From Chitinophaga vietnamensis (GTDB lineage: Bacteria > Bacteroidota > Bacteroidia > Chitinophagales > Chitinophagaceae), in the NCBI RefSeq assembly GCF_902167635.1, contig NZ_CABHMS010000009.1, forward strand, positions 186,001 through 250,000: a stretch of DNA of 64,000 nucleotides. Reading direction: 5' to 3'. Below are positions 1,855-57,589 of this stretch, piece by piece. The position numbers and the translations under genes are program-made. Within the stretch, counting starts at the first letter, position 1; each line of letters begins with the position of its first letter. The notes below the pieces were generated by a model. The model had not been told where the DNA came from and did not search any database. It was given only the letters and a program-made list of their open reading frames with translations.

Positions 1855-1860
1855 AGCTAA

Positions 1861-2243: not shown

Positions 2244-2251
2244 TATTTTAA

Positions 2252-2703: not shown

Positions 2704-2786
2704 AAAGGAAATACAATATAGAGAAGAAGATGAATAAGGCGTCTGCTGTAACTCATGAGATAGCACAAGAACATACTACTAAATAA
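2682..2786 (+). other. Short open frame before the next immunity gene, possible toxin tail
   Basis: A 34-codon open stretch beginning after a TGA within the end of the previous gene and ending at TAA 2784-2786, seven bases before the next ATG. Its last part reads MNKASAVTHEIAQEHTTK from an ATG at 2730. It could be another displaced toxin end or a chance frame. Confidence 0.22.
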
Positions 2787-2793
2787 TCAGGTC

Positions 2794-3261: not shown

Positions 3262-3263
3262 CA

Positions 3264-3332
3264 ATGGATAATAATACGTGGAGAACTCGTTGGCATACAC
3301 GTCTACCTGCCAAAGCTATTAAACAATCATGA
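3264..3332 (+). other. 22-codon frame ending in an ATGA overlap, possible toxin tail
   Basis: Reads MDNNTWRTRWHTRLPAKAIK followed by Gln, Ser and stop; the TGA overlaps the next gene's ATG as ATGA. Trp-, Arg- and His-rich ends are typical of nuclease toxin tips. The exact stop/start overlap with a small downstream gene repeats the RHS/immunity junction at 927-936. Confidence 0.35.
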
Positions 3333-3688
3333 AAAAGAGCTACTACCATACATTCGGAAGTAATATCGAAAACATACAAACTTTAGCCAGGCTATTACTC
3401 GATAAATTAGATCTGAAATTTGAAATGCACGAAAGCGACTACATAGGTGTGTATTTGAAATATTCCGGTTTGTATGCCGATAAAATTACCATTGAAAAAA
3501 ATTTCAACGCTATCGAAAATAATTGGAAAGAACAGGATTTCAAACAATACAAAACCCTTATCTATGTCAATAATACTAATGGGAAAAATGCGGACAAACT
3601 CGGTAAAAGTAAATATTTAAAAGAGGCGCTCGTAAAAATAGCTGATATAATTTTTCTTAAGGAGAAAGTAGTTGAGGCTGATCTTTAA
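3329..3688 (+). CDS. Small predicted immunity protein
   Basis: A 119-residue Lys-rich soluble protein beginning MKKSYYHTFGSNIENIQ, with a long helix (TLARLLLDKLDLKFEM) and a C-terminal helix (YLKEALVKIADIIFLKEK). No family recognised. The start is fixed by the ATGA overlap with the preceding short frame. Part of the array behind the RHS gene. Confidence 0.6.
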   Translation: MKKSYYHTFGSNIENIQTLARLLLDKLDLKFEMHESDYIGVYLKYSGLYADKITIEKNFNAIENNWKEQDFKQYKTLIYVNNTNGKNADKLGKSKYLKEALVKIADIIFLKEKVVEADL

Positions 3689-3697
3689 AAATACTGT

Positions 3698-4000
3698 ATG
3701 GGGCCGGATGTTTTAACCTATAACAATGAGGGCATAAAAAATGGAGCATTTGAAATTGATGAAGATCTCCATTATTGGCTGTTCAATAAAGCAAATTTAG
3801 ATACGGAAGAATACACCACGCTATTTGAAATAAAAGATTATTATAAAACTAATGCACAATTGGCTGGTGAAAGATTACAAAGTTTTATCCATGCATTAGA
3901 ACAGATAAAAATAAGTTCTCCATTTAGTAAAGAGATTGATTTTATTATCAATAAAATCAATCAGAACAATATTAAGAAGATACGAATCACTGGTGATTAA
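3698..4000 (+). CDS. Small predicted immunity protein
   Basis: A 100-residue acidic protein (EIDEDLHYWLFNKANLDTEE) ending in a Lys/Asn-rich helix. Starts nine bases after the previous stop and ends seven bases before the next likely start, so it is probably co-transcribed with both. No signal peptide, no known family. Function inferred from the array only. Confidence 0.55.
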   Translation: MGPDVLTYNNEGIKNGAFEIDEDLHYWLFNKANLDTEEYTTLFEIKDYYKTNAQLAGERLQSFIHALEQIKISSPFSKEIDFIINKINQNNIKKIRITGD

Positions 4001-5715: not shown

Positions 5716-6219
5716 TCAATTGTTGGCCCAGCCGCCAGCGACGCTCCCTCCGGAACCTTTGCTCACAAAGGCTTTGAAGGGTTGTACATTTTCTTCCGAT
5801 AGCGGCAGTTTATAGGCCTGCCTGCTCTGCGAGAGGATCACCTGCGCATATTCCATCGGGAACAGGCGCACGCGTATCAGGCGCAAAGGCAGTATCAGTT
5901 TATAGTCCGTGTAGGTGTTGACGTTATTCACGGCATCTCCTTTTTCAAGGCGGTCAATAAAGTCGTGTATGCGGGCGGGGCGCCGCTTTGCCTGCGACAG
6001 CATAATCAAATAAGGTATCAGCGGACCTATTACCATCAGCCCGAACATCACGTAGAGGATGAGGGGCAGCTGTACATCGTTGCCCAGTACGTTCACCAGT
6101 ACCAGCGTAAGCAGCGCCAGTGCCGCCACTTCCGCTACGATCAGCGCCGTGATGGTTTGCCGTATGTCTCTCTGGTGGATGGCCAGCAAGGTGGATCTAA
6201 GTTCTTGCAGGTTATTCAT
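5716..6219 (-). CDS. Two-helix membrane protein in DUF3137 operon
   Basis: A 167-residue protein from ATG 6219 (MNNLQELRSTLLAIHQRDIR). Two transmembrane helices (ITALIVAEVAALALLTLVLV and LILYVMFGLMVIGPLIPYLI) precede a soluble C-terminal half. The start overlaps the end of the upstream gene by eight bases, pointing to translational coupling. It resembles the N-terminal half of its DUF3137 neighbour in layout (helix, two membrane spans, soluble domain). No specific family known. Confidence 0.7.
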   Translation of the reverse strand: MNNLQELRSTLLAIHQRDIRQTITALIVAEVAALALLTLVLVNVLGNDVQLPLILYVMFGLMVIGPLIPYLIMLSQAKRRPARIHDFIDRLEKGDAVNNVNTYTDYKLILPLRLIRVRLFPMEYAQVILSQSRQAYKLPLSEENVQPFKAFVSKGSGGSVAGGWANN

Positions 6220-6538
6220 GGGTCTTATTTTTTTGCGTAACGAGCCTGACGAAATTGCTGATGGCAAGGTATAGACCGATGGCGCCGATCACGCCAAACA
6301 CCGATAGCAGCACCCATTGATTGTTGCCGGTCATCTTATAAATCAGCGTTTCTATCCTGGTGAGACTCACAGCATCAATGGTAGTATTGCTGAATTGCTG
6401 GTAACGGTTAATGCCCAGCCCTATTCCGGCCGCTGCCAGCAGGAGTCCTGCCGCCACGCCGCCCCAGGAAGGACCATCATCATCGTCATCCACAAGCTTG
6501 TGATTACGGGGTTCCATTTCAGGTTCGATGCTGTTCAT
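6212..6538 (-). CDS. Small two-helix membrane protein, first gene of DUF3137 operon
   Basis: A 108-residue protein with an acidic N-terminus containing five consecutive Asp residues (LVDDDDDGPSW), then a Gly/Ala-rich membrane helix (GGVAAGLLLAAAGIGLGI) and a second one (WVLLSVFGVIGAIGLYLAI) with a basic C-terminus. Probably a helper or anchor for the two downstream products. Similar in layout to the DUF6249-type small inner-membrane proteins, but I cannot assign a family. Confidence 0.65.
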   Translation of the reverse strand: MNSIEPEMEPRNHKLVDDDDDGPSWGGVAAGLLLAAAGIGLGINRYQQFSNTTIDAVSLTRIETLIYKMTGNNQWVLLSVFGVIGAIGLYLAISNFVRLVTQKNKTHE

Positions 6539-6599
6539 ATAAAGATTTTATGGTTATTGTTCCTCGGGCTAACCACAACGAAAATAACGAATTAATGCA

Positions 6600-7817
6600 T
6601 TATTTGATCAACAACACCTGCGGTGGAAAAGCGAAATCATTCCAGGCTGCGTCTGCTTCTGCGGGAGTGATATCGCCATTATAAACCATCACGCGATATC
6701 TTAACGTATAGTCGTTACCGTAAGTAAGCTGCCAGGGTTTCATTTTAGTGGGGGAATAGTTGAGCATCAGCTCTCCACCTTCCATGTTTTCCGGCCATAC
6801 GCGCAGTGGTTCCGGCGAATCGTAGTTATCGGGTGCATTCATGATGAGCAGGCCTGCCTGTCCTTGCGGGGTGGCGCCGGTAATCTTCACCCAGCGGGCG
6901 CGGGTGCTGTCGGCATCTTTGCGTGTTTTGCCTTCTGAAGTAAGCACCTGGCTGGTGGCAGCGGTGAACGCTGCGGTAGTTCTCAGCCCAAACCCGCCGC
7001 CATAGCGGTATTGCAACAGGGTAATACCGCTGTCGGATGCGCAACGGAGCGTGGATATCATATCCCACAAACGGCGGGCGCCCTGCTCAGTGGCAGGATA
7101 GGCCCTTACCTCCAATGTTTCACGCAAGGCGATCTTTTCTCCTTTACCGCCGCTGAAGGCCACATGTTCCTGCAAGGCGGTAAAGCCGCACCAGGCGGGG
7201 CCCGACACTGTTCCCAACAGCTGCGCAAAACGTACCTTGCCTTCTTTTTTCTGCACGTTCCAGAAATCTGTTTCATGACCTTCAAAACGGGTATGTGTCC
7301 AGGGATTCCAGATGCCCATATGATGCCGGTGACCGGCATTCGGAAAGATATTGGTCAGCACCGCGCCATTAGGCGCCCATAAAGGATGTATGAAACCACT
7401 GCGGCGGTATACTGTATCGGAACCTGCGGGCGGCTCTGCTATGGCGGTATTGTATTGTAATATCTGATCCTGTCCCTGGCGCAGCACCACTGCTTCTTTC
7501 GTAACAACCGCCATCATGGCTGGTGCGGCGGTAGCAGCCTTTGCCTGGTGCAATTCAAAAATACGGGTAGCGCCGGCGGCCGTATGGCCGCTCAATATCC
7601 AATAAATACCATCGGCCTGCACCTGAACGGGAACGGCTATACGTTTTTTCCCACTCACTTCTTCCAGTTCAACATTTGCAGGAATGCCAGAGGTTTTATA
7701 GGTAACAAGACAATTATTCCGGTTGTAGCTGCCGGCATTCACTTGCAGACGGGCAAGTACCTGCGCCTCTGTGGAAACGGCCGCCAGCAAGGCCAGCGGC
7801 AAAAGGATATTCTTCAT
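6600..7817 (-). CDS. DUF6807 (PmoA-like) secreted protein
   Basis: A 405-residue protein from ATG 7817 with a signal peptide (MKNILLPLALLAAVSTEAQ). The body carries the pattern RRSGFIHPLWAPNGAVLTN, HRHHMGIWNPWTHTRFEG and the late MNAPDNYDSPEPLRVWPEN, typical of the DUF6807 or PmoA-like family common next to sugar-processing genes in Bacteroidota. An upstream extension of the frame to 8048 lacks coding character and crosses the divergent gene. Probably a periplasmic beta-sandwich protein acting on a carbohydrate; exact reaction unknown. Confidence 0.85.
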   Translation of the reverse strand: MKNILLPLALLAAVSTEAQVLARLQVNAGSYNRNNCLVTYKTSGIPANVELEEVSGKKRIAVPVQVQADGIYWILSGHTAAGATRIFELHQAKAATAAPAMMAVVTKEAVVLRQGQDQILQYNTAIAEPPAGSDTVYRRSGFIHPLWAPNGAVLTNIFPNAGHRHHMGIWNPWTHTRFEGHETDFWNVQKKEGKVRFAQLLGTVSGPAWCGFTALQEHVAFSGGKGEKIALRETLEVRAYPATEQGARRLWDMISTLRCASDSGITLLQYRYGGGFGLRTTAAFTAATSQVLTSEGKTRKDADSTRARWVKITGATPQGQAGLLIMNAPDNYDSPEPLRVWPENMEGGELMLNYSPTKMKPWQLTYGNDYTLRYRVMVYNGDITPAEADAAWNDFAFPPQVLLIK

Positions 7818-7934
7818 AACGTATACATCTATAAAGATAAAAATACGGCCTGTTTCTGCTGAATGCAAGTCCTTTGCGTAGTGATGCAATAATATTGCAT
7901 AAAACATGGTGCCGCCATTTTTTATTAATTCTAT

Positions 7935-7942
7935 TACTTTTG
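7935..7942 (+). promoter_or_regulatory. Bacteroidota -7 box (TACTTTTG)
   Basis: Exact match to TAnnTTTG, 19 bases before the ATG at 7962. No clear -33 TTTG at the usual spacing. Confidence 0.5.
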
Positions 7943-7961
7943 ATGCATTAATAAGTAACAA

Positions 7962-9488
7962 ATGGCAGCCCCCATTATTAACATGCAATCTACTAAACTG
8001 ATCATCACCAATAAAACTGCGTTGCAGCAGAAATATGGGGACCAACACCAGGCTATCCTCAACGACCTTGCTGCATTACAGGCTTTTGACGGTACCCGTC
8101 ACCTGGATACGCATATTATTTTCCTGGATGATGCAGCACAGATGCAATCCCTCAAAGCCACGGCGGTAACCGATCCTGCGGATGAAGCCCAGAACAAACA
8201 GGCTATCGACGAGTTATATGCATTCTTCTCACCAGGATATATATTGATAGCAGGCGCACAGGATATTGTCCCCTTTCAGCGTTTGAAAAATATGTTATCG
8301 GGAGATACAGACCCGGATACTTTTATTCCGAGCGACATGCCATATGCCTGCGATGCGCCTTACGACAAGGATCCCGGCAAATTCGTCTCGCCTACCCGCG
8401 TAGTAGGAAGGCTGCCCGATGTGCCTGCGCAAAATGATCCCGCATATTTCCATTCACTCGTTCAGGATATCATCAACATAAAATCCCTGCCGCAAAGCGA
8501 ATACCGGTCTTACTTTTCGATCAGTACCTTCGACTGGCAGGATTCTACACAACATTCACTGCGCAATATTTTCGGTGATAACAGCGCCCTGCGCATTGTT
8601 CCCGGCACACCGGATATCGATGGCCACAATTGGACCGTGCAACAACTGATGCCCAAAACACATTTCATCAATTGCCACGGCGCCATCTACAATGCAGGCT
8701 ACTATGGCCAGAAGTCATACGATTTTCCGCTGGCCATGCAATCGGATACCATCACCGGAAAGATCAGCAGCGGCACCGTAGTAGCAGCGGAATGCTGCTA
8801 TGGCGGCCAATTGTACGATCCTTCCAAAAATATCAGTAAGCTGATGAGCATGGCCAACAGCTACCTGCTTAACCATGCCATCGCTTTCGTAGGCAGTACC
8901 AATATCGCCTATGGCCCGTCTACCGGGCAAGGGCTGGCCGACCTGCTCACGCAATATTTTGTGATCAACGTGCTGAACGGCGCCTCTACCGGCAGGGCCA
9001 TGCTGGAAGCCCGGCAGAAGTTCCTCAATGAAATGGGGCCAACCCTCGATCCTTATGAACTGAAAACCGCCGCACAGTTCAATCTCTTCGGTGATCCTTC
9101 ACTACAGCCGGTGATCAACGAAAAAGATCCTGCTACAGATATCATGAGTAAATCATTTGTGAACTCCGTGCAGAACCGCCGCGATAACCTCGAAGCGCGC
9201 GGCAAAATACTGGATACCTTTATTTCAGCGCCGCAGCCTGCGGATGAATCGCATACCACCGATCCCGGCGTACAGGATGCCATGCATTCCCTGCTCAGTG
9301 AAAAACAGTATGGTAAGTCGCTCCCGAAAGTATTCGTCGCCAAAAAAGAGGAGGCTACACCATCTGTAAAATTTCATGTATTTTCGGAACCAGTAAAAGC
9401 CACCAACAACGCACCTGCTTCAAGGGCGCTGGTGGTGAAAGAAAAGAACAATCAAATACTCGGTTATCGTGAATATGTCAGCCGATAA
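7962..9488 (+). CDS. C25-like (gingipain/caspase-fold) cysteine peptidase without signal peptide
   Basis: A 508-residue protein; ATG 7983 is an alternative start. Clan CD features are visible: a strand ending HFINCHG (His239 candidate) and VVAAECCYGG (Cys279 candidate), followed by SYLLNHAIAFVGSTNIAYGP and the closing FNLFGDPSLQPV that is characteristic of C25 peptidases. Gingipain-type C25 enzymes are secreted, yet here the N-terminus (MAAPIINMQSTKLIITNK) has no signal peptide, nor a sorting domain at the C-terminus, so the enzyme should act in the cytoplasm. The last 110 residues are Lys/Pro-rich and low in structure. Its stop overlaps the next gene, indicating an operon. Confidence 0.8.
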   Translation: MAAPIINMQSTKLIITNKTALQQKYGDQHQAILNDLAALQAFDGTRHLDTHIIFLDDAAQMQSLKATAVTDPADEAQNKQAIDELYAFFSPGYILIAGAQDIVPFQRLKNMLSGDTDPDTFIPSDMPYACDAPYDKDPGKFVSPTRVVGRLPDVPAQNDPAYFHSLVQDIINIKSLPQSEYRSYFSISTFDWQDSTQHSLRNIFGDNSALRIVPGTPDIDGHNWTVQQLMPKTHFINCHGAIYNAGYYGQKSYDFPLAMQSDTITGKISSGTVVAAECCYGGQLYDPSKNISKLMSMANSYLLNHAIAFVGSTNIAYGPSTGQGLADLLTQYFVINVLNGASTGRAMLEARQKFLNEMGPTLDPYELKTAAQFNLFGDPSLQPVINEKDPATDIMSKSFVNSVQNRRDNLEARGKILDTFISAPQPADESHTTDPGVQDAMHSLLSEKQYGKSLPKVFVAKKEEATPSVKFHVFSEPVKATNNAPASRALVVKEKNNQILGYREYVSR

Positions 9489-9747
9489 TAATAAAAAAGA
9501 GACACCCGTAGTAACGATGCAAGGCCGGCTTGCGCTGCGCACTTTCGGGAAACACACCAAGAGTGAGCACCTGGGCGTATTCCTCTGCACCGATCATGGG
9601 GATTATCTCATCCGGCCTGCCGATGCCAACCCATTTATGAACAATCCACTGATGCCGCTCGCCGGCAAGATCATCAGCGCCACCGGGTCCATCGTGGATT
9701 ATGTATTCCTTGCCACCAGCTGGCACGAAACGGGCGATAACTTGTAG
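9475..9747 (+). CDS. Small partner protein of C25-like peptidase
   Basis: A 90-residue protein starting MSADNNKKETPVV inside the end of the peptidase gene (ATG 9469 is also in frame). It is strand-rich (GRLALRTFGKHTK, HLGVFLCTDHGDYLIRP) with a compact beta fold likely. No family recognised. Overlapping translation suggests a stoichiometric partner or inhibitor of the peptidase, but this is inference. Confidence 0.65.
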   Translation: MSADNNKKETPVVTMQGRLALRTFGKHTKSEHLGVFLCTDHGDYLIRPADANPFMNNPLMPLAGKIISATGSIVDYVFLATSWHETGDNL

Positions 9748-9813
9748 CTACCGCAATTTTTGTTATTTTGTGAGATGACAGGACAGATGAAGACTGCCAG
9801 AAGAATGTAACCT

Positions 9814-10443
9814 ATGAACTTATCGGCATTTATAACAGCCCTGATCCGCGAAGGGCAGGTAGCTGTGGCACACGATATTACCCCGTTTCCCCCTGAAGCA
9901 TTACAGGAGGCCACCGCAGTACTGCATAGCTATTATCTCCATGATATTTCGGACATGCCCGCCGACCCGCCAGCATTCGACCCCGAGGCCGCATTATGGG
10001 CCGCGATCTACGTTTTCCGTACCACTCAACTCATCATGCTCAAAACACCGGCGGCTGAACAGGTAAGCACCCTGCTCCTGCCATACCCGGGTGCCATCAC
10101 CGCTGCCGCGATATACAGCGCAGACCTGTGTTTGCGCTATCTGCCGGACCTGCTCAGCATGAGCAAAGGCCTGGCGCCAGATGATCCGCTCCTTACACAA
10201 CTGCGGCAAACCGCCGCCGCATGGCCCTACTCTTCCACGGGTATGCAAATTACGCCAGCTGCGCACCTGGATATCATCACCGGCAACTCCTCACTATTAC
10301 AAGCTTACGCCGACAGAGTGATCGCCACCAGGGATATCAGCCGCTGCAATATGCCCGCCGTAACTGCCGCCATTGTAGCGGCACTCGGCAATTATCAGGA
10401 AATACTCTGGCCCGATTTCAGGTTACCGCTACATCATCGTTAA
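9814..10443 (+). CDS. Helical protein resembling a bpX-type accessory domain
   Basis: A 209-residue all-helical soluble protein (MNLSAFITALIREGQVAV, DPEAALWAAIYVFRTTQLIM, AIYSADLCLRYLPDLLSMSK). The pattern recalls the small accessory domain annotated as bpX4 in MoxR-vWA-beta-propeller ternary conflict systems. It follows the C25-like peptidase and its small partner on the same strand after a 66-base gap. The MoxR ATPase, vWA and propeller components are not in this window. Family call is from memory and tentative; its stop overlaps the convergent epimerase gene by four bases. Confidence 0.55.
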   Translation: MNLSAFITALIREGQVAVAHDITPFPPEALQEATAVLHSYYLHDISDMPADPPAFDPEAALWAAIYVFRTTQLIMLKTPAAEQVSTLLLPYPGAITAAAIYSADLCLRYLPDLLSMSKGLAPDDPLLTQLRQTAAAWPYSSTGMQITPAAHLDIITGNSSLLQAYADRVIATRDISRCNMPAVTAAIVAALGNYQEILWPDFRLPLHHR

Positions 10444-48744: not shown

Positions 48745-48816
48745 TGGCCTGCTCCATCAAAGGAAAATGGGATGAAACAGTCATTTTTTATGACGAAAAG
48801 ATAATAAAAAGCAAAA

Positions 48817-48836
48817 CGGCGGGCAAAAGCCCGCCG
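48817..48836 (-). terminator. Terminator of the PatG-like operon
   Basis: Eight-bp GC-rich stem (CGGCGGGC/GCCCGCCG) with an AAAA loop; on the minus strand a T-rich stretch (TTTTGCTTTTTATTA) follows. Lies 26 bases past the Hint-domain gene. Confidence 0.85.
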
Positions 48837-48861
48837 CCTCAACTATGATGGGGTTTGCTGG

Positions 48862-50595
48862 TCATTGTTTTTTGAGGGAATTGAGATAATCCTGATGCCA
48901 CTCTTTGGGCAGTTTCTTCAGTATACTGTCTTTGGCGTAGGGTTGTTCAAACTTATAATACTGTTGCAGGCGGCTATCTCCCACGAGGATGCCATTGGCA
49001 TAAAAGAGCGCATTGTTCTTGCCGGGCGCCTCCTGGTTTTTGTCGCACCGGGTAAGGGCGAGGTTCCATACTTCGCCGCTGTATTTTTCCTGGTTCAGGG
49101 AAACAATGCTGGCTTCGCCTTTATCGGTCAGTATCTTGTCTTTCACTTTCAATTGCGCGGCCTGCACGATACCGCCAGGAATGGCCATGGGATGGTCTTG
49201 CGTAACGAGCAGGTTGTGTCCCTTATCATCGATCACGCGGATCATGGGGTGCGGCTCATGACCGGTAGTGTTGTATTCCACGCAATAGGCGGGCTTTCCG
49301 GGCGATGCCATCACTTTACCTTGCATGGGCACGTCTTCAATTTTCATTACTTTGCCACCGTCCATGGTGATGTTGGTGCCTTTGGCAAGGCAACCGGAAA
49401 CGATCTGCATGGGCGGTATCTTCAGGGTGGGCGGCGTAGCGGAAGCCGCATTGGTGATCGTTGCAAAAGCGGGCTGGTTGCCTACCTTCACGAAGATGGT
49501 GAGCTGAAACAGTACCTGGTCGCCACTGGCAAGACAGGAATTCTGAAACTGCGCAGTGGGCACATTCCAGGAAAGCACGCTGTCTTTCACGGTCACATAA
49601 TCCCAGAAGTTACCGCCGATCGGGATGCCTGCGCATCCGCCACCAACGGGCAACCTGGCCACGGTGATGTTATAGAAAGCGCCGGAGTTGGGCTTGCCAT
49701 TGCCATCTACATTCACCTTGCCGTTATACACAATGCGGCCTTGTAAAGGGAACATGAAATTCGGCGCCAGTCCGCCAAAGCAATAAGTGCAGGCGGGCGT
49801 TTTGCGGGTCATGCATACGGTGATGATAGACGTATCAGCGCAAGGCGCATTGTTGCATTCGCCTACCGGCTGTCCGAGCTGGCAGGGCATGGGTTTGATA
49901 TTGATCACACTATCCACCACATTGGCGGAGGAGGCCACCTGGAAGCCGGTATGCGTATCGCCGCTCTTGTCCTGGTAAAAATAGGCGAACAGCGAGTTTA
50001 CCGTATCTATGCGCGCAGCCTTGCCTCCCACCTTGCCTGTTAAGGCGTTTTCATTCTCCGTACCGAAGGTAGCCACCTGCAAATCGCGGCTGTTAAGGTA
50101 CGCGCTCTTTCCTACAGTAGGCCCGATGGTGTCGCCATTCTGGTTGAACAGCCCCAGCGAAATGGTGGAGGAGAGCACTTCTATAGGGATGGAAGATAAT
50201 CCTGAAGTAGTATAATGTACCTGGTCTTTCGTATCAAAAGAGGTAATAATATTCACTGGCCCGGCGATCTCGGCAAATGACGAGGCCGTGTCTTGCAGTA
50301 CAGCCGTGGGTTGTAGCGTCTTCACATGGTGTTGGCGTGTAGCTTCCAGCACTTTAAAAAATTGCGGGTTGGTATTTTCGTTTATGCCTGAGCGGTAGAG
50401 CATCTTCGTATATAAGCGGTATTGCGCTTCATCAGAGAAATTGAATTGCATACGCTTACCTGTTTGCCCGATCTGTAGCAGGTGCTTGACATCCTGCCGG
50501 TCTTGCTCAGAATAGGTATTGAGGGAATGTTGTTCCGACGGCGCGCAGCCCCATAGGGCCATAGCAGTCAAAACGCCTGTTATCAATTGTTTCAT
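48862..50595 (-). CDS. Lipoprotein with C-terminal Hint (hedgehog/intein) domain
   Basis: A 577-residue protein from ATG 50595 with lipobox ALWGCAPS. A long N-terminal region of mixed strands holds a Cys cluster (MPCQLGQPVGECNNAPC and CMTRKTPACTYCFGG). From Cys402 a Hint fold starts (SGCLAKGTNITMDGGKVM), with the B-block His in LLVTQDHPMAIPGG and an end block LFYANGILVGDS. Hint domains cut or splice the chain at the first Cys. Here the chain continues about 40 residues beyond. It is the last gene of a PatG-like operon, 84 bases after a small Cys-rich peptide gene. Whether it self-cleaves is unknown. Confidence 0.8.
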   Translation of the reverse strand: MKQLITGVLTAMALWGCAPSEQHSLNTYSEQDRQDVKHLLQIGQTGKRMQFNFSDEAQYRLYTKMLYRSGINENTNPQFFKVLEATRQHHVKTLQPTAVLQDTASSFAEIAGPVNIITSFDTKDQVHYTTSGLSSIPIEVLSSTISLGLFNQNGDTIGPTVGKSAYLNSRDLQVATFGTENENALTGKVGGKAARIDTVNSLFAYFYQDKSGDTHTGFQVASSANVVDSVINIKPMPCQLGQPVGECNNAPCADTSIITVCMTRKTPACTYCFGGLAPNFMFPLQGRIVYNGKVNVDGNGKPNSGAFYNITVARLPVGGGCAGIPIGGNFWDYVTVKDSVLSWNVPTAQFQNSCLASGDQVLFQLTIFVKVGNQPAFATITNAASATPPTLKIPPMQIVSGCLAKGTNITMDGGKVMKIEDVPMQGKVMASPGKPAYCVEYNTTGHEPHPMIRVIDDKGHNLLVTQDHPMAIPGGIVQAAQLKVKDKILTDKGEASIVSLNQEKYSGEVWNLALTRCDKNQEAPGKNNALFYANGILVGDSRLQQYYKFEQPYAKDSILKKLPKEWHQDYLNSLKKQ

Positions 50596-50679
50596 GGGAT
50601 ATGTATAAAAATGAACAAGAAGATGCAACCTGCCGGAAGGTGCCGGCAGGCTATCATATACCGGGGTACAATATTTTCT

Positions 50680-50955
50680 TTACAGGCAACCCATAATAGC
50701 ACCCACCAGATCAGGGCCTGCGCAGGCGGCCAGGCATGCAGGGTTAGGGCCGCAGGTGGTGAGGCATTTGATGCCGATAGGGCCAGCTGCCGACAACAAA
50801 CAGGGCACTTTACCTACCACGGCATTACCAACATCTTTTAAAAAATCGAGGAAGCCGGAAGTCTGTATCTGTCCGGATGCCATAGCCGGCACGCCTGCAT
50901 ATATCTGCCGTGCAGGCGCTGCTGTAAGGGATGTGCTTAAATTTGGAAGTTTCAT
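50680..50955 (-). CDS. Small CxxxC peptide with MKLP leader, RiPP-like precursor candidate
   Basis: A 91-residue peptide. The N-terminal third (MKLPNLSTSLTAAPAR then QIYAGVPAMASGQI) lacks Cys; the C-terminal part has six Cys including CLTTC-GPNPA-CLAAC and ends IMGCL. It shares the YAGxPA motif and leader layout with the peptide encoded at 51964-52212, while the Cys-rich part differs. This layout fits a precursor with a conserved leader and variable core, or a disulfide-bonded secreted peptide. It is flanked by a PatG-domain gene and the Hint lipoprotein gene. Confidence 0.72.
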   Translation of the reverse strand: MKLPNLSTSLTAAPARQIYAGVPAMASGQIQTSGFLDFLKDVGNAVVGKVPCLLSAAGPIGIKCLTTCGPNPACLAACAGPDLVGAIMGCL

Positions 50956-50973
50956 ATCGTTCGGATTTAGTGG

Positions 50974-51945
50974 TTATATACCGGGATAATATTTTGCCAG
51001 CCCTACTACGAGGAAAGGAAACTCATTGGAAACATCCACAGTGCAGGCGTAATTCTGCATCGCTGCAGACGTTTGCGACTGATAGGAAAATATCACCGTG
51101 ATGATCTTCATATTGCCGTAAACCTCCACCGGATTGGCATTCACGCGTATCAGCTCATAGGGGTCATTTGCATTAGCGTATTGCAGCTCCCATGTTTTCA
51201 CATACAGCAACATATACCGCAGCACGAGGAAATTGAGCGCACGGTATTTGTCCAGGTCGCCGGCATTCTTCACCAGTTGTGTGGTATTGGAGAAGATAGT
51301 GGCTGCCTGCTCCGGTGTGGCCCGACCGCTGGTAGCTTTGATGATATCTTTCACATATTCCTGTGCGGTGATGCTATATAGCTGCGTCATGATCACGTAG
51401 GGCAATTCCTGTGACACATTCACTTCCAGGTGCCCATTCGTTTTTTCACCGATGAGAATATCATAACCGATCTGCAAGGGAGTAGGCGCCAGCGACTCCA
51501 CAAGGGTGCCCAGCATGCGGTTGGTGGTTACTTTGATGGCGTAAAGATCGAGGAAACCGTATATCTGGAAGATCCAGTTCAATTCCCTGGCGATATAGAG
51601 GTTCTGCGGATCGCGGAGATATTTGAATGCGATCATGCGGAAAGGTTTGTCTTTATCGGCATCGTCGGTAACGGCTACCTGATAAAATTCGTTTTCCACA
51701 CTCTGGGAGGGAAACTCCGGGATGATATCTCCGAAAGTATATACATATGCGCCGGTGCCGCCATTGCCACAGGTGCATCCGCCGCTGCTGTTGCCGTTTT
51801 GCTGGCAACTGCATTGCGGCACGATGTAAGAAGTGTTCTGGTTTTCCAGGAAGCGCGCCGTATCAAACTTTGGCTCATCGGCGCCGGTGATCTTTCCCGG
51901 TCTCGCGAGCGCTAAATTATTATCTGCGAAAGAAGCAAATTTCAT
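50974..51945 (-). CDS. Stand-alone PatG-type C-terminal domain protein (copy 2)
   Basis: A 323-residue protein. A short N-terminal part holds a Cys-rich stretch (PQCSCQQNGNSSGGCTCGNG), then the domain seen at the C-terminus of PatG-like proteases: AYVYTFGDIIPEFPSQSVEN, NLYIARELNWIFQIYGFLDL, NAGDLDKYRALNFLVLRY and the ending FLVVGLAKYYPG. In cyanobactin pathways this domain is fused to the subtilisin macrocyclase; here it is a separate protein. It is paralogous to 53879-54835. No signal peptide. Confidence 0.8.
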   Translation of the reverse strand: MKFASFADNNLALARPGKITGADEPKFDTARFLENQNTSYIVPQCSCQQNGNSSGGCTCGNGGTGAYVYTFGDIIPEFPSQSVENEFYQVAVTDDADKDKPFRMIAFKYLRDPQNLYIARELNWIFQIYGFLDLYAIKVTTNRMLGTLVESLAPTPLQIGYDILIGEKTNGHLEVNVSQELPYVIMTQLYSITAQEYVKDIIKATSGRATPEQAATIFSNTTQLVKNAGDLDKYRALNFLVLRYMLLYVKTWELQYANANDPYELIRVNANPVEVYGNMKIITVIFSYQSQTSAAMQNYACTVDVSNEFPFLVVGLAKYYPGI

Positions 51946-51963
51946 CGGGGAAGATTTGATGGT

Positions 51964-52212
51964 TTATACAAAGTCGGATGCGAAGCAATTCCTGATGCAG
52001 GGCAGCGCATCGGCGCCGCCGCATTGCCGCCAGCAGTTGATATCAGCGCCACAATACGAGCATGCCGCAGAAGTGGTGGCGCCTACACATTTATCAAGAC
52101 AGCCGGCGCCTACCTGCATGGCTATTTGACTGACCGCTGCTGCCGGCGCCCCCGCATACCTGCGGGATGATCTTATCTCCTTGCCGGAAGAGAGCATCGC
52201 CTGAAGTTTCAT
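51964..52212 (-). CDS. Small CxxxC peptide, second RiPP-like precursor candidate
   Basis: An 82-residue peptide starting MKLQAMLSSGKEIRSSR then RYAGAPAAAVSQI. The C-terminal half has eight Cys: CLDKC, ACSYC, CWRQC and CIRNC. Three of these are CxxxC pairs, the spacing of alpha-hairpinin-like scaffolds. The leader shares Arg, YAGxPA and a following QI with the peptide at 50680-50955. Sits between the LamG protein gene (one base away) and a PatG-domain gene. Confidence 0.72.
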   Translation of the reverse strand: MKLQAMLSSGKEIRSSRRYAGAPAAAVSQIAMQVGAGCLDKCVGATTSAACSYCGADINCWRQCGGADALPCIRNCFASDFV

Positions 52213-52213
52213 G

Positions 52214-53860
52214 TTACTTCTTTTTAGGTTTAGGTTTGTGTACTTTTTTTTCTTTGGCGGTATGTTTCGGCTTTACCTCTTTCTCTACCTTGCCTGTTAT
52301 GGGTAACTGCAATGAGAGTTTCTCCTGTTCTTCCAGTTCCCGTCTCACCTGCGCAGCCAGCGCGGGTATGGCGTCTATCAAACCGACGATAAATTCCGGC
52401 GACTGGATACGGGTAGATACTTCCCAACCTTTTTCGTGTGAATCTTCCGTGCTGCACAACCCGATCTTGCCATTGTTCTTATTACCGGAATAATCGAAGC
52501 CATAGCAGCCATAGCCTTCATTGAGTTGCCAGTTGAGGATCATATTCATGTCTATAGGCGCAATGATCACCTGGCCAAGTAACGTGACCGCATATACGAT
52601 ATTGTTGTACAACGTGAAGGCGCTGATGGGCGGCATTACGACGGCTTTCACATCCTGCCAGGTAAGGCCTGCATCTTTTGAATAGGCCAGGTTCCCGTCT
52701 TTCTTTAATACCATCAGCAAACCGTTGCTGTAGCAAACCTGCGTGATCTTGTCTATCAAGGTTGGCACAGAAGTGAAGCTGGAGCCGCCATTGGTAGAGT
52801 GGTTCAATCCGCCGGAAGTATCCACCATCCATAGTTCTGTGGCAGAAATGGCATCGATGTAGCCGAAGTTGGTGGCGCTGTTTACCAATGTCCACGATTG
52901 ACTGTTGTTGGTACTGATGAAAAGATTGTTAGCCGTACCGATGCAGAAAAGCACATTCGGCGCGGGGGCGCTCAGTTGCGCAGCGCCACCACTTGTAGTT
53001 TGCGTCCAGCTGGCGCCGCTGTTGTTAGAGAGCATGATATTGGGCGGATTGCCGCTACCGGCTTTCCAATAACCCCATACCACGCCGTTTCCCTGTACGG
53101 CGATGCCATTGAGTTTGGTGGCGAGCGTGATCACACTCCAGGTATTACCGCCATCTTGCGATACCTGGAAATTATTGTCTGCGTCCAGTCCGCAGAGCAT
53201 AACAGTGGGAGAACTATTAACGATATTGGGGCCAGCAGATATGGCAATGAAAGGCCTTGATATAGCGGGCAGCTGCCAGGTGGCCAGGCCGGTATTGTTG
53301 TAGATATTGCGGCGCATGTCCTGTTCTATCAGCTGTTGTGTTCTCACCTGATCCCATATACGCAGTTGCGTGATCCTGCCTTCGAAGGAATCGCTGAAGT
53401 TACCGCCTGCGGAGCCTTGCAGCTGTGCCAGCACAAGCGCGCCGCCAGGCACCAGCGGCGCGCCGGGAGAAACAGTAGTAGTATAGGCCAGCACCGCGTC
53501 TTTATACAGCAGCAGACTACCGCTGTTACTGTCCCAGGTAAGCGCGAAATAATGCCACTCCGGGATATTGTCTTTCGTATTCACAAAAGAGATACCGGTG
53601 GGATTGGTGGTATGGCTGTTCACATACAGGTTGATGTTTTGCGGGTTCTGTATCACCAGCGAGTTTTCGCCGGTGAGCGAGTACGACAGAATGGTGCCCG
53701 TATTTTTCGGGCTGGCCTGTATCCAGAACTCCACGGTAAAAGCTTTGCTCACAAAATCTTCTACCGGGTTCACGATGATATAATCCGTGAGGGCGCCCGA
53801 CAATGAAGCCACGGTATTGTAGATGGGATCGTATTTTGGAATGGTGATGATGGTCTTCAT
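52214..53860 (-). CDS. LamG plus beta-propeller protein without signal peptide
   Basis: A 548-residue protein from ATG 53860. Residues 20-190 form a LamG/concanavalin-like jellyroll (KAFTVEFWIQASPKNTGTIL, WHYFALTWDSNSGSLLLYKD, GRITQLRIWDQVRTQQ). Residues 195-440 hold BNR/Ycf48-like propeller repeats (FQVSQDGGNTWSVI, IMLSNNSGASWTQTTSG, LFISTNNSQSWTLVN). The last 30 residues are Lys/Pro-rich. No signal peptide, though such domains are normally outside the cell. It could be exported by a route tied to this operon, for example via a leader-specific transporter; that is speculative. Confidence 0.78.
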   Translation of the reverse strand: MKTIITIPKYDPIYNTVASLSGALTDYIIVNPVEDFVSKAFTVEFWIQASPKNTGTILSYSLTGENSLVIQNPQNINLYVNSHTTNPTGISFVNTKDNIPEWHYFALTWDSNSGSLLLYKDAVLAYTTTVSPGAPLVPGGALVLAQLQGSAGGNFSDSFEGRITQLRIWDQVRTQQLIEQDMRRNIYNNTGLATWQLPAISRPFIAISAGPNIVNSSPTVMLCGLDADNNFQVSQDGGNTWSVITLATKLNGIAVQGNGVVWGYWKAGSGNPPNIMLSNNSGASWTQTTSGGAAQLSAPAPNVLFCIGTANNLFISTNNSQSWTLVNSATNFGYIDAISATELWMVDTSGGLNHSTNGGSSFTSVPTLIDKITQVCYSNGLLMVLKKDGNLAYSKDAGLTWQDVKAVVMPPISAFTLYNNIVYAVTLLGQVIIAPIDMNMILNWQLNEGYGCYGFDYSGNKNNGKIGLCSTEDSHEKGWEVSTRIQSPEFIVGLIDAIPALAAQVRRELEEQEKLSLQLPITGKVEKEVKPKHTAKEKKVHKPKPKKK

Positions 53861-53878
53861 ATGCAATCAGTTTGATGA

Positions 53879-54835
53879 TCATGGTGCCGGGTAATAACGC
53901 GCCAGGTGCCTGCTGGCCATGAAGGGGAACATGCCGGTAACGTCCACTTTCACGTACCAGTAGATGATGTCGACGGTATCGCGGGCCTGGTACTGGAATA
54001 TTACGTCCATGATGCTGCGGTTGCCTTGTACGTTGGCGCGTTGCACGTCCACGCTTTGCAGGAAGTACACGCCGGGCGGATAGGGCGGCAGCGGGTTGCT
54101 GAGCTGCATTTGCCAGGCCATGAAGTAGATATCTTTCGAGCGGATGGTGAGATAGTTAAGGGCGCGGTGCGCATCCGTTTCACCGGCATTGTCCGTTACA
54201 TCCAACATCTGTTGCAGCATGCTTTCCACGATGTCCCGCGGGATGCCGGGGATATTGGCCATCATGGCATTGACGAACTGCGAGAAAGTGAAATAGTAAG
54301 AGAGATTCACAACGGCCGTGGGCAGCTGCGTGCCGTTGCATCGCTCCGGAGATGCCAGCGGGCCGCGGGTTCCCACTACTACATCAAATTTCTTTTCGCC
54401 CACAAATACCGGCTCCAGTGCGGCAATGAAATGATAGAGCTCTACGTTGGAACGCGGCGTGAGGATGTAACTGTCCACCCCTTGTATGTTGAGTATCCAG
54501 CACATCTTTTCAGCGATATAGAGGTTCTGTCCCTGGCTGAGCACCTGGAAGAACAGCGCATTGGGCGGGCCTTCTGCGCGGAATTCCTGGTAGGCATACA
54601 TATACTCTTCTTCAAGGCTTTTGTTCGGGAAGGTGGGATAGATATTGCCGATGGCGTAAATGTAGCCAAGGTCTTGCGCGCCACCGCCGCCGCAACCGCA
54701 GCCGCATTGTGGCTCCAAAACCGCCAGTGGCGCGGCTTGCGGGACCAGCTGCGTATCAGCCGCCACCACCGGGTCTGGCGCCTTTTCTACGGCAATGGTT
54801 GCAGGCGCTTCCTGTAAAGATTGTTCTGTGTTCAT
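53879..54835 (-). CDS. Stand-alone PatG-type C-terminal domain protein (copy 1)
   Basis: A 318-residue protein. An N-terminal Ala/Pro/Val-rich linker is followed by a Cys-rich hinge (EPQCGCGCGGGG) and then the PatG C-terminal-type domain: GYIYAIGNIYPTFPNKSLEE, LYIAEKMCWILNIQGVDSYI, GPLASPERCNG, DNAGETDAHRALNYLTIRS and the end HLARYYPAP. In known PatG-like S8 proteases of other phyla the same Cys hinge and domain follow the protease on one chain. Here the gene lies 12 bases after the protease gene, so the protein is a split version. Confidence 0.85.
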   Translation of the reverse strand: MNTEQSLQEAPATIAVEKAPDPVVAADTQLVPQAAPLAVLEPQCGCGCGGGGAQDLGYIYAIGNIYPTFPNKSLEEEYMYAYQEFRAEGPPNALFFQVLSQGQNLYIAEKMCWILNIQGVDSYILTPRSNVELYHFIAALEPVFVGEKKFDVVVGTRGPLASPERCNGTQLPTAVVNLSYYFTFSQFVNAMMANIPGIPRDIVESMLQQMLDVTDNAGETDAHRALNYLTIRSKDIYFMAWQMQLSNPLPPYPPGVYFLQSVDVQRANVQGNRSIMDVIFQYQARDTVDIIYWYVKVDVTGMFPFMASRHLARYYPAP

Positions 54836-54847
54836 ACGAGCGTTGAT

Positions 54848-55738
54848 TTACCGGGTATTAATGATTTTTTCGAGATGTGCCTGGCTTTGTGTTACGTTGA
54901 GCAGCGGCGGTACGATGCCCCTGCGGCCGCTTCCCTGCTGCGTGATAGCGGCATGTATCTCGCCGGCTTTCGCATGCGGGTATAGCGACCATAGTAAAGA
55001 GATACTGCCTGTTACAAAGGGCGTGGCTACACTGGTACCTGAGAGCTTCGTATATCCGCCGCCGGATTGCAGGTGAGTCATGTTCCAACCTGGCGCCAGC
55101 AGGCCTCTCTGGCCGATGGACATGCCGATGTTGGACTGTGCCGAGGGCTCGCCTTTCTGGTTGCAGGCTGCCACTGGTATCACCCAGGGATGGTCAAAGA
55201 GCGGATTGTGCCCGATGCGTCCGTGGTTGCCGCTGGCGCCAACGATGATCACACCGCTGTGGAAGGCATCGTCAAATACCTGGTGCAGCGGGGAGGCGCC
55301 TGCCCGGCGTATGCCTTCCGGTGCTAGGCCCAGGCTGAGATTGATCACCCTGGCGCCTTGATGCATCACATCCCGGATTGCGTTGGCAAGATGTGTTGTT
55401 GTAACCTCCGGGCATTGACTGAAATCTGCTGCTTCGCAGAAGATGGGCCGGGCCACAAAAGTGCAGGCCGGGCAAATGCCTGGTGCTCCTGCCTTTCGGG
55501 CGGCGCCTAATATGCCGGCCACAAAAGTGCCGTGTTTACAGGCATAGCTGCTGGTAGTCTTGCATACCACCACTGCCGCATCGGCAGCGGGTTTGAAGAT
55601 AGCCCCCTGAAGATCGCTGTGGGATGTGTCTACCGGCCCGTCTATAATGCCTACTCCGATACTCCTGTGTCCCTGGCTTCGCTCCAGCAGCGGTTGCAGC
55701 TGGATGAGCGAATACGCCTGATCAAGCACGCCCTGCAT
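54848..55738 (-). CDS. Subtilisin-like protease of PatA/PatG type
   Basis: A 296-residue S8 peptidase. Catalytic triad visible: Asp33 (GVGIIDGPVDTSHSDL), His69 (YACKHGTFVAGILGAA), Ser236 (LSGTSVATPFVTGS), with Asn171 of the oxyanion hole (GASGNHG). The Cys in ACKHG and the block APGICPACTFVARPIF match PatA/PatG-type cyanobactin proteases, which cut leader peptides or macrocyclise cores. No signal peptide or prodomain, so it should act in the cytoplasm. It lacks the C-terminal domain of PatG, which is encoded separately next to it. Confidence 0.88.
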   Translation of the reverse strand: MQGVLDQAYSLIQLQPLLERSQGHRSIGVGIIDGPVDTSHSDLQGAIFKPAADAAVVVCKTTSSYACKHGTFVAGILGAARKAGAPGICPACTFVARPIFCEAADFSQCPEVTTTHLANAIRDVMHQGARVINLSLGLAPEGIRRAGASPLHQVFDDAFHSGVIIVGASGNHGRIGHNPLFDHPWVIPVAACNQKGEPSAQSNIGMSIGQRGLLAPGWNMTHLQSGGGYTKLSGTSVATPFVTGSISLLWSLYPHAKAGEIHAAITQQGSGRRGIVPPLLNVTQSQAHLEKIINTR

Positions 55739-55766
55739 GAATGGTTATAATGAGTGAATAATTAAC

Positions 55767-56249
55767 TTATTGCAATACGCAAACAGTGCCTACCCCTGCA
55801 TTGGCCGTTTTCAGGCGTAGCGGCGCGCCGCCGCCCGGCACGCTGTTGGCCGCTTCTACGGCTGCTGTACAACAGTTGTTGGTAAGAAGATCATACTCGC
55901 TGGCCTTGCGTTTATCGTAGACTGCTGTTGCCTTTTGCCAGTCGGATGCAGAAGCCTTCTTCTTCACGATGGTGCAGGAGCCGGACGTATCCCCTTCTTT
56001 TGCGGACCCGGCATCCGCGAAGTACCCGCGTGAATCTACGATCTTCCCGTTCCTGACGAAAGTAAGATAACAATGACAGGGGCAACTGCCTGTGCCTTGC
56101 CCCTGCACAGGACGGGTACAGGCATAGATATCTCCGGTATCGTCTTTTTCCGCGGACTGTGGTGCAATACCCGCTATGCGCGCGGGGTAGCCGCTGTTCC
56201 GCAACATAAAAACGACGTTGTCCGCATTACCGAGATAAGGCAATTTCAT
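55767..56249 (-). CDS. MKLP-type papain-fold-like small protein (copy 1)
   Basis: A 160-residue protein starting MKLPYLGNADNVVFML. It has a Cys-rich loop (SCPCHCYLTFVRNG) with a His at the start of a strand, and later YDLLTNNCCTAAVEAANSV. The order His then Asn-Cys resembles permuted papain-like (LRAT/NlpC-type) folds, where these residues form the active site. It is paralogous to the next upstream gene and shares its MKLP start. No signal peptide. Could be an effector or a processing enzyme of this operon. Confidence 0.65.
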   Translation of the reverse strand: MKLPYLGNADNVVFMLRNSGYPARIAGIAPQSAEKDDTGDIYACTRPVQGQGTGSCPCHCYLTFVRNGKIVDSRGYFADAGSAKEGDTSGSCTIVKKKASASDWQKATAVYDKRKASEYDLLTNNCCTAAVEAANSVPGGGAPLRLKTANAGVGTVCVLQ

Positions 56250-56289
56250 AATGGTATATTTAAACTATAAAAGACAGGATACCTAACTA

Positions 56290-56670
56290 TTATTTGTTTG
56301 CATACATAACGAAGGAAGGCGCCATCTCTCCCAATTGATACAGGGCATCTGCTGCACAGGAGCAGCAATCGTGCTCATTGAATTTAAAGTCCTTGCCGGC
56401 GCATGTTTGTTGATAGTAGCGTCTGATCCTCTCCCAGGAAGCTGGTGTAATATTTTTCCGGATAGTATTGCATTGCAGGGCCGCATCTGGTTTTCTGTCG
56501 GGGCCACCGGTCTCGTCCGGCCCATAGGATATACTGTCTGCCGTATTGCCGGCGGCATCGGTAAGCCTGATATAGCAGTGTTGTACAGGGTTGCCCTCGA
56601 GACTACCTTTTCTCAAACACACCTGCATATCTGCCTGCGGCGCCAATCCAAGGGTGACAGGTAATTTCAT
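56290..56670 (-). CDS. MKLP-type papain-fold-like small protein (copy 2)
   Basis: A 126-residue protein starting MKLPVTLGLAPQAD. It keeps the proposed His (VQHCYIRLTDAAG), a helix before the Cys (PASWERIRRYYQQTC) and the Cys box NEHDCCSCAADALYQLG, matching NNCC in the paralogue. First small gene of the operon, 41 bases before its paralogue and 74 bases after the regulator gene. Function not established. Confidence 0.65.
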   Translation of the reverse strand: MKLPVTLGLAPQADMQVCLRKGSLEGNPVQHCYIRLTDAAGNTADSISYGPDETGGPDRKPDAALQCNTIRKNITPASWERIRRYYQQTCAGKDFKFNEHDCCSCAADALYQLGEMAPSFVMYANK

Positions 56671-56744
56671 GCGGTTTTCATTTCGACACTATGAAATTAA
56701 CCAAGATTTTAATACGGCAGTATCACATCTTCCGGTAGTTGCCA

Positions 56745-57434
56745 TCACATAAATGGGGGATGGCCTGCGGGCCTGGTGAGCTTGGCCAATATCTCTCCCT
56801 TGGAGTTCACCTCCATCTTCCGGTAGATCTTCTTGATATGATGCCTGACGGTTTCTATGGAGATGCCCAGCCGCGAAGCGATCATCTTGTAACTAAGGCC
56901 GCCCGAGATCAATTGCAGTATCTCTTGCTCCCGCTTGCTCAACAGGTTGTTGTATTGACATTCCCGGAACGATACCAACTCTTCTACCATCAACCGCGTG
57001 ATCTGCGGCGACAACGGGAAAACCTTGCCAGGATAGGATCTTACCATCTCCTCTATCAATGATCCATCCATCTCTTCTTTCAAAAAATATCCGCTCATCC
57101 CCGATTTGAGATAACACAATGCTTTCTGTAAATCATCACATGCAGACAAGGCAATGACCACTGTGGGTGTCATGTTCTCCGACTGTTGCATGAAATGCAC
57201 GAGCGACAAAGGATCATAAGCATCTACATCGATGAACAAGAGCAAGGGCTCTCCCAACAAGCCTTTGTATTTGGAGAAATCCTGCAGGAGCGGCAATAAC
57301 ATCGAGATGGAATCCAGGCCTGCCCGTGTTTTGAGCGTCCTGTAAAAATCTGTATCCGCGGTGAGGACCAGGGGGATAAATGGCAGATGAACTGCAACAT
57401 CAGCCGGATAAAGCGTTTTCAGCTGCGACCGCAT
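56745..57434 (-). CDS. NarL/LuxR-type response regulator
   Basis: A 229-residue regulator from ATG 57434 (MRSQLKTLYPADVAVHL). The receiver-like domain has an Asp in LLLFIDVDAYDPL and a Lys in GYFLKEEMD, but the N-terminal acidic pair is only ADTD, so phosphorylation is uncertain. The LuxR helix-turn-helix at residues 165-220 is clear (LSKREQEILQLISGGLSYKM, LGISIETVRHHIKKIYRKME). It lies immediately upstream of the PatG-like operon on the same strand and is probably its regulator. No cognate kinase is adjacent. Confidence 0.85.
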   Translation of the reverse strand: MRSQLKTLYPADVAVHLPFIPLVLTADTDFYRTLKTRAGLDSISMLLPLLQDFSKYKGLLGEPLLLFIDVDAYDPLSLVHFMQQSENMTPTVVIALSACDDLQKALCYLKSGMSGYFLKEEMDGSLIEEMVRSYPGKVFPLSPQITRLMVEELVSFRECQYNNLLSKREQEILQLISGGLSYKMIASRLGISIETVRHHIKKIYRKMEVNSKGEILAKLTRPAGHPPFM

Positions 57435-57559
57435 AATTATATTGAGGGAATGTGGATAATAAAAAAGCCAACAACTATAAATGTAGCCTAATACCAGCAA
57501 TCAAAAAAATCGGGCATAAATACCACAACTGAAAATAATGGCGTATTTTATAAAAAAGG

Positions 57560-57589
57560 AGGTCCTGCAACGATGCTGTTGCAGGACCT
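57560..57589 (-). terminator. Terminator of the SusC-SusD operon
   Basis: Twelve-bp stem AGGTCCTGCAAC with a 6-base loop, A and T tracts on either side. About 90 bases past the SusD stop on the minus strand. The remaining bases between 57435 and 57676 hold no gene that I can support. Confidence 0.8.

Follow-up and report, generated by a model that had tools for sequence, protein, structure and literature searches.

The 64,000-nucleotide stretch of Chitinophaga vietnamensis DNA analysed here (contig NZ_CABHMS010000009.1, positions 186,001 to 250,000; the window) carries on its minus strand, from position 57434 to 48862, an operon related to the PatA and PatG proteases of cyanobactin pathways. 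A preliminary description had placed ten genes here, ending in a terminator, and a check of the open reading frames (ORFs) finds all ten at the positions claimed. From first to last, they encode a LuxR-type regulator, two papain-like proteins (PapA and PapB), an S8 protease, a protein with PatG_D and PatG_C domains (PatGa), a LamG-propeller protein, a Cys-rich peptide (pepA), a second PatG_D/PatG_C protein (PatGb), another Cys-rich peptide (pepB) and a Hint-like lipoprotein. The successive gaps are 74 (LuxR to PapA), 40, 28, 12, 18, 1, 18, 18 and 84 bases, computed with ATG starts for the LuxR, LamG and Hint genes. A hairpin scan shows a terminator-like hairpin of 13 pairs with a T-run directly past the last gene (48812..48841, minus strand), and another of 12 pairs upstream of the first (57560..57589); a further hairpin, of 11 pairs, lies in the gap from pepB to the Hint gene (50626..50653, minus strand) and is a possible attenuator. 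In all, the scan counts 16 terminator-like sites in the region, where shuffled sequence gives 9.5 on average. The operon is real, and it encodes a split, doubled PatA/PatG-like system without YcaO.

The protease (54848..55738, minus strand) is a stand-alone, PatA-like member of the Peptidase_S8 family (Pfam, E 1.1e-29). Its triad, proposed earlier as D33/H69/S236, is borne out by residue position and by alignment to relatives in the PDB. The best sequences there are 4h6v, 3zxx, 3zxy and 4h6w (E 3.8e-27 to 1.9e-23), the last of which is named N-terminal cyanobactin protease; the other three, named subtilisin-like protein, we take to be PatA. The first classical subtilisin ranks behind these (E 2.7e-18). 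As expected for one domain alone, the protein stays below the cut-off of the NCBI PatA/PatG model TIGR03895 (84.9 bits, cut-off 421.05), and with the NCBIfam models TIGR03921 and QhpE it also scores below the respective cut-offs (123.1 and 50 bits). By eye, it has no signal peptide or membrane anchor.

PatGa (53879..54835, minus strand) combines a Cys-rich N-terminal segment with PatG_D (7.9e-23, 81.5 bits) and PatG_C (1.1e-15, 58.1 bits), and PatGb (50974..51945, minus strand) carries the same two domains (1.2e-12, 48.7 bits, and 1.3e-15, 57.8 bits). All four scores exceed the Pfam cut-offs of 27 and 25.9. The existence of two stand-alone PatG C-terminal-domain proteins, for which the preliminary description had itself named a profile search as the refutation test, is thereby upheld; and with S8, PatGa and PatGb on separate chains, the PatG domains are indeed split from the protease and doubled. 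Searched against the PDB, PatGa had two matches, neither of them credible (E 0.24 and 0.38).

The four small proteins of the operon, hereafter its cargo, all start with MKL, and three with MKLP. This common N-terminal tag is the new observation at this locus. PapA (56290..56670, minus strand) opens with the tag MKLPVTLGLAPQAD, followed by a permuted-papain-like domain (HCY ... HDCC), and PapB (55767..56249, minus strand) with MKLPYL..., followed by the site AGIAPQS and a domain of the same type (CHCYL ... NNCCT). The Cys-rich peptides are pepA (51964..52212, minus strand; MKLQ, 82 aa, 8 Cys), which has an orthologue in C. skermanii, and pepB (50680..50955, minus strand; MKLP, 91 aa, 6 Cys). 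Three of the four have a PatA-like site after the tag, two of these loosely or by eye. The putative leader of PapA would comprise 14 residues ending at GLAPQAD (56629..56670, minus strand; boundary predicted by alignment), that of PapB 32 residues up to the GIAPQ site (56154..56249, minus strand), and that of pepB 34 residues ending at QIQTSG (50854..50955, minus strand; looser pattern only); the putative pepA leader (52105..52212, minus strand) is the weakest case, matching neither site motif. GLAPQAD aligns with GISLQSD (residue 36) in the C. skermanii orthologue. The predicted leaders of these two orthologues, 14 and 36 residues long, finish at the same motif. In three relatives, the QIQTSG of pepB, which gives no match to the motif [ILV]xP[SQA], is QIEPAG, QIEPAD or QVQPAG.

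In the papain-like family, H59 and C126/C127 are invariant among six aligned sequences, and Pfam matches are weak and below cut-off (Lnb_N, E 0.29; DUF6950, E 0.0014); matches to PPPDE entries are weak as well. Six strong matches to this family occur in 2 of 79 Chitinophaga genomes, every one inside a PatG operon; five weak matches (7e-5 to 7e-4) occur in five other Chitinophaga genomes, and four of these are, by eye, long ORFs with GH..NC. Three Chitinophaga proteins of 434-451 residues (loci L044-L046), lipoproteins by eye, have a C-terminal papain-like H..NNC region and are followed by an ORF of 136-138 residues, an arrangement resembling an effector-immunity pair.

The remaining operon proteins are the LuxR-type regulator, the LamG protein and the lipoprotein. 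The first (56745..57434, minus strand; a further-upstream opening at 57500 is possible) has a GerE helix-turn-helix domain (Pfam 4.1e-16) and no clear receiver domain (Response_reg only 0.17). The LamG/beta-propeller protein (52214..53866, minus strand, ATG at 53860) matches Laminin_G_3 (1.9e-16) and, below the Pfam cut-off, Sortilin-Vps10 (9.3e-7); it has a Lys-rich tail and, by eye, no signal peptide. The lipoprotein, so classed by eye (48862..50595, minus strand), has a Cys-rich N-terminal and a Hint-like C-terminal part, with C413 and H479 as numbered in the 588-residue ORF opening at 50628; its Hint matches are below the Pfam cut-offs (PT-HINT 18.8 vs 27.7; Hom_end_hint 17.5 vs 32.1). Thus, the Hint and papain-like ORFs are present as described earlier, but with all Pfam matches under the cut-offs these two labels are its weaker points. 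None of the ten proteins was recognised, in Pfam or NCBIfam, as a known post-translational modification enzyme.

Similar tags, unrelated cargo, and split or fused PatA/PatG-type genes are found together at other Bacteroidota, cyanobacterial, rhizobial and Streptomyces loci. The tag, worded post hoc from the very loci counted as M[KRN][LIMTVF]P, was counted in 16 loci. Within their regions it occurs at 32 of 500 candidate starts on the operon strand and at 1 of 548 on the other strand; outside the regions 4 of 1404 starts carry it, and at least one of these four (L035:7158) resembles real cargo. The corresponding Fisher values of 9e-10 and 2e-15 overstate independence, because every in-frame Met codon counts as a candidate start, so that one ORF contributes several, and because loci L033 and L034 are near-identical. 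Where Bacteroidota and cyanobacterial loci are of the fused type, the tag often extends as LPxxxxP[VI]xR and is then followed by G[IV]xPS at about residues 22-29, as in L024_1, L032_1, L036_1 and L039_1.

PMC10885120 describes PatA as cutting after G(L/V)E(A/P)S. With E freed and I allowed, i.e., as G[LVI]x[AP]S, this site is found within residues 9-60 in 8 of 36 cargo sequences, none of the eight being from the window or from Chitinophaga (2000 shuffles: mean 0.47, maximum 4). A looser motif, [ILV]xP[SQA], worded once both cargo sets had been seen, is found in 20 of the 36, with 4.8 on average and at most 14 in 2000 shuffles. Of 11 cargo sequences from split loci outside Chitinophaga, 8 have it, with 1.3 on average and at most 6 in as many shuffles. 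In the window it occurs in PapB (IAPQ) and PapA (LAPQ). The 36 sequences are 24 of the 32 in-region tag matches plus 12 added by hand, being off the strict pattern or outside the region: the window's pepA; Pap2, Pap3, Pap4 and pepA of L026; four of L022; L024_2; L025_1; and L035_2. Five tag matches were dropped as gene overlap or chance (L026:9735, L025:10396, L025:13159, L035:8414, L035:9125), along with two L034 duplicates and one PatB. Two rows of the set are misplaced, L024_3 being cut one residue late and L025_2 six residues early. PatA-like sites are thus enriched over shuffles in the predicted cargo.

The operon resembles the cyanobactin pathway in its PatA-type S8 protease, its PatG_D and PatG_C domains, and its putative N-terminal leader, which in some of the cargo sequences bears a predicted cut site of the G[IVL]x[AP]S kind. 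It differs in that protease and PatG domains are on separate chains, PatG_D/C is doubled, there is one protease, the cargo is protein-sized and the genome is without YcaO. YcaO is typical of cyanobactin clusters, and heterocyclase-free cyanobactins exist. Its absence, noted earlier for the window, holds for the window's whole genome, and for all 17 distinct Bacteroidota genomes with PatG_C in our pooled samples (own 0/1, others 0/11 and 0/5), in a search that scored in 5 of 14 control genomes and on a Gloeothece cyanobactin plasmid; the latter is the one positive among eight plasmid records, a search confined to the plasmids. No AYDG-like macrocyclisation site was found in the 36 cargo sequences, the looser [ASFP]YD included, nor was an LSEEAL-like heterocyclase element, which in the Gloeothece cluster appears as LSEEEL in the putative precursor. 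Given the lack of YcaO and of AYDG-like and LSEEAL-like sites, we reject a cyanobactin cluster proper.

Among the NCBIfam leader models, none matched the window peptides and none relevant matched ten tagged peptides of relatives; two of three cyanobacterial tagged peptides gave sub-threshold matches, to TIGR03678 (E 0.059) and TIGR04446 (E 0.044), located in the leader part. The PatE leader presumably has a similar start. PatB of the Gloeothece locus (L037:13577-13792) starts with MRLPKLAPPVKR, an LP-type tag like that of the cargo here; this assignment comes from one sequence, the sole PatB in the plasmid collection, and from its match to TIGR04220, which begins at the first residue (residues 1-60, 130 bits). 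The S8 leader proteases of the QhpE, mycosin and nisin type are also subtilases and mature a peptide or secreted protein, as is predicted here; unlike them, the window protease appears by eye to have neither signal peptide nor membrane anchor, and we know of no PatG_D/C partner in those systems.

From the sequence comparisons, we consider it probable, at roughly 0.6, that the operon encodes a PatA-type leader-removal system without heterocycle or macrocycle formation. Two Cys-rich peptides and two permuted-papain-like proteins would be made with a common N-terminal tag, and the cytosolic-looking S8 protease would remove this tag after the PatA-like site, in the cytosol or during export. The PatG_D/PatG_C proteins would act as separate subunits that aid tag removal. 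The mature products would probably act outside the cell, most likely as an antagonistic or defensive arsenal. Of the peptide or effector maturation and export suggested in the preliminary description, maturation gains support from the leader-like tag and the PatA-like sites, which had not been described earlier for the Cys-rich peptides, but no specific export route is indicated.

Several observations weigh against this interpretation. Within the window, no site motif is present in pepA, and pepB fits only the looser of the two patterns first applied to the 36 sequences; the motif [ILV]xP[SQA], absent from both peptides, was, as stated, worded after the fact. Two of nine split loci outside Chitinophaga (L019 and L059) have no S8 gene in the stretch examined. 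According to PMC4259220, isolated PatG-DUF showed no binding of the precursor PatE' by nuclear magnetic resonance, and a calorimetric signal was put down to aggregation; this result leaves a helper role of PatG_D/C unsupported there. Moreover, the exact MKLP-type pattern, predicted beforehand for five further split loci (L057-L061), failed, being present at 1 of 209 candidate starts in the regions and 1 of 471 elsewhere (p 0.52). At three of these five loci the form [KRNQST][LIMV]PGF, already known from rhizobial and Streptomyces loci, is found instead, with 6 of 8 six-frame matches falling in the region, although it makes up 26% of the space (p 0.005). A broader form, LPx[FY]TA, worded only after these loci had been read, has 7 of 7 matches in the region, in L057 and L058 (p 7e-5). 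Since the MKLP pattern failed and LPGF-type matches are concentrated in the region, we conclude that the split clade outside Chitinophaga uses a different predicted tag form (LPGF/LPxFTAE). L060 and L061 have no in-region match to either form, and one ORF of L061 starts with MTIPSFSASS.

Between loci, the cargo changes while protease and tag stay. The tagged cargo of L023 is a Kunitz/BPTI domain (E 4e-15), that of L022 includes two peptides without Cys, amphipathic-looking by eye, and that of L057 (5756-7030) is a 424-residue pentapeptide-repeat protein (E 5.9e-55) whose start is the LPGYTAE form of the tag. Cys-rich cargo shows recurring spacings, namely 2-3-10to12-3-4or5 in five peptides of three loci (L024_2, L024_3, L033_1, L033_2, L035_1) and 10-12-2-0-16 in L032_2 and L035_2. 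Directly 3' of PatG_D/C in L059 (6835-8244) lies a gene for a 469-residue Stig1-like Cys-rich repeat protein (E 1.8e-31), whose start, PIFISEETAL, is tag-like by eye. L060 (G1273:C20:139000-158000) has, at 6075-10353, genes for an S8-like protein and a stand-alone PatG_D/C protein in the vicinity of one for a TP_methylase (6.4e-17), whose N-terminal part resembles LigA below cut-off. This methylase we take to be borosin-like; L060 is possibly a borosin cluster using PatA/PatG-type parts, and by eye it is unlike the kind of cluster at the other loci.

The recurrent Cys spacings raise the alternative that the operon is a true pathway for ribosomally synthesised and post-translationally modified peptides, in which the LamG-propeller or PatG_D/C protein would also modify the cargo, e.g., by Cys cross-links. 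The doubling of PatG_D/C, the conservation of the LamG protein in all four Chitinophaga operons, and the TP_methylase gene of L060, if the presumed borosin link is right, point in the same direction. We regard this as unlikely, given ten proteins among which Pfam and NCBIfam recognise no known modification enzyme and a cargo that includes a 424-residue pentapeptide-repeat protein and a Kunitz domain, folds that are not known to need such modification. Less probable still is that the tag serves mainly to direct the cargo to its target or to export, through a transporter whose gene lies elsewhere, with S8 cutting late or serving other substrates. The absence, by eye, of Sec signal peptides from cargo, S8 and LamG proteins would fit such a role, as would the location of the tag at the extreme N-terminus, apart from the putative cut site. 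By eye, however, no recurring transporter gene adjoins the loci, C. skermanii alone having an ABC-ATPase-like ORF right behind the operon (L026:12954-13949), and tagged small genes stand beside PatG-type genes in loci of four phyla. Finally, the papain-like copies are clearly paralogous, so their shared N-terminus is partly due to common descent, but it is very improbable that the small genes are ordinary secreted paralogues with the tag as a relic and S8/PatG in an unrelated stress or signalling role, because the tag is on proteins of unlike folds and the PatA-like sites exceed shuffles.

PatG_C is rare in the sampled Bacteroidota genomes. The counts are 4/79 for Chitinophaga, 5/298 for the order, 6/394 for the family, 7/298 for another family within that order, 1/13 for a third family of the phylum, and 2/395 for each of the class and phylum samples; these samples overlap, and all except the other-family and third-family ones include the window's own genome. 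In the four Chitinophaga genomes (own included), the neighbourhood is conserved, the second point that had been named earlier as open to refutation: LuxR heads the operon, the order LuxR, S8, PatGa, LamG, PatGb is constant, and a tagged peptide lies 3' of PatGb in 4/4, while the papain-like genes, pepA and the Hint gene each occur in 2/4. None of four flank proteins of the window was found in the 19.9-kb stretches around the other three operons (tblastn, 1e-5), and the 10, 12 and 13 flank ORFs of those stretches include none common among them. With no flanking genes in common, the cassette therefore appears at different genomic places, and it may have some form of mobility.

The plasmid relatives of PatGa are distant (5 records, 27-33% identity). 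A phage origin is not supported, PatGa being without a phage match; nor is an anti-phage system, as the PADLOC matches are all generic (subtilase/IetS, homing endonuclease and helix-turn-helix).

The earlier restriction of the system to Bacteroidota did not stand, as plasmids of rhizobia and Streptomyces carry split relatives and those of cyanobacteria carry fused ones. In the fused Bacteroidota proteins, S8, PatG_D and PatG_C are all over cut-off, and 7 of 7 distinct ones tested pass TIGR03895 (504-686 bits; cut-off 421). In a midpoint-rooted tree of 17 of 18 given S8 sequences, seven stand-alone proteases (Chitinophaga, rhizobial, Streptomyces) separate from ten fused ones (Bacteroidota, cyanobacteria) with branch support 100/100; the inner forks are mostly weak (2 of 14 starred). 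The tree is without L037_cyG, which the search with the window S8 missed, and without L034, L039 and L057-L061. The Photobacterium sp. GJ3 plasmid (L020, 12001-13618) has two tandem PatG_C-like stretches; by eye, the second is split across ORFs and an ORF nearby resembles DUF4157 proteins. In L022 (G238), a stand-alone PatG_D/C protein is encoded in addition to one in which S8, PatG_D and PatG_C are fused, a possible intermediate between fused and split.

The split plasmid loci of Mesorhizobium, Sinorhizobium and Streptomyces are like the window in having a stand-alone S8, which falls in the Chitinophaga clade, not far from a separate protein whose PatG_D and PatG_C matches exceed the cut-offs (L016-L018), with tagged Cys-rich peptides nearby (L016, L017). 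Their genes are annotated as S8 peptidase and hypothetical protein. Unlike the window, they have a single PatG_D/C gene, an LPGF-type tag, and an extra small LPGF..GLGD..CGGC protein between S8 and PatG_D/C; and L016-L018 gave no match to the window LamG, papain-like, Hint and LuxR proteins at E 1e-3. This small protein ([RH][LI]PGF..GLGD..GIxxCGGCExRAxxLN, about 55-75 residues) precedes PatG_D/C in L016-L019, L057 and L058, and a version in which CSSC replaces CGGC occurs in L059; bearing the tag itself, it is possibly a constant part of split systems. The locus of Sinorhizobium mexicanum (L016) lies on a plasmid typed as conjugative, about 7 kb past nodI of a nodulation cluster (nodC, nodS, nodU, nodI).

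Elsewhere in the window, G+C falls to 0.36-0.39 in positions 1-4000, against about 0.50 in the rest, and by eye the ORF at 202-936 resembles the final portion of an RHS-repeat protein whose C-terminal part is variable.

In a literature search of titles and abstract starts, with most subscription journals outside its scope, we found no description of PatA/PatG-type proteases with such cargo outside cyanobactins. We tentatively propose, as a possibility we hold with less confidence than leader removal in the operon itself, that PatA/PatG proteases with short LP-type leaders form a general maturation system that has spread horizontally through several phyla, and of which the cyanobactin pathway is a specialised branch. 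If so, the system would mature folded or disulfide-rich proteins, and the cyanobactin branch would have added heterocyclase and macrocyclase. PMC4259220 reports the PatG domain and PatB as cyanobactin parts of unknown role. Under the general system proposed here, PatB would be tagged cargo or a relic of it, and the conserved PatG domain would be a subunit serving tagged proteins. Loci with free PatG_D/C, one protease, tagged cargo and no heterocyclase would isolate the role of the PatG domain and make it testable. Should the tag function as envisaged, a short, portable leader and one kind of protease would serve cargo that ranges from Kunitz to papain-like to pentapeptide-repeat proteins, and would lead to a set of unannotated bacterial mini-proteins.

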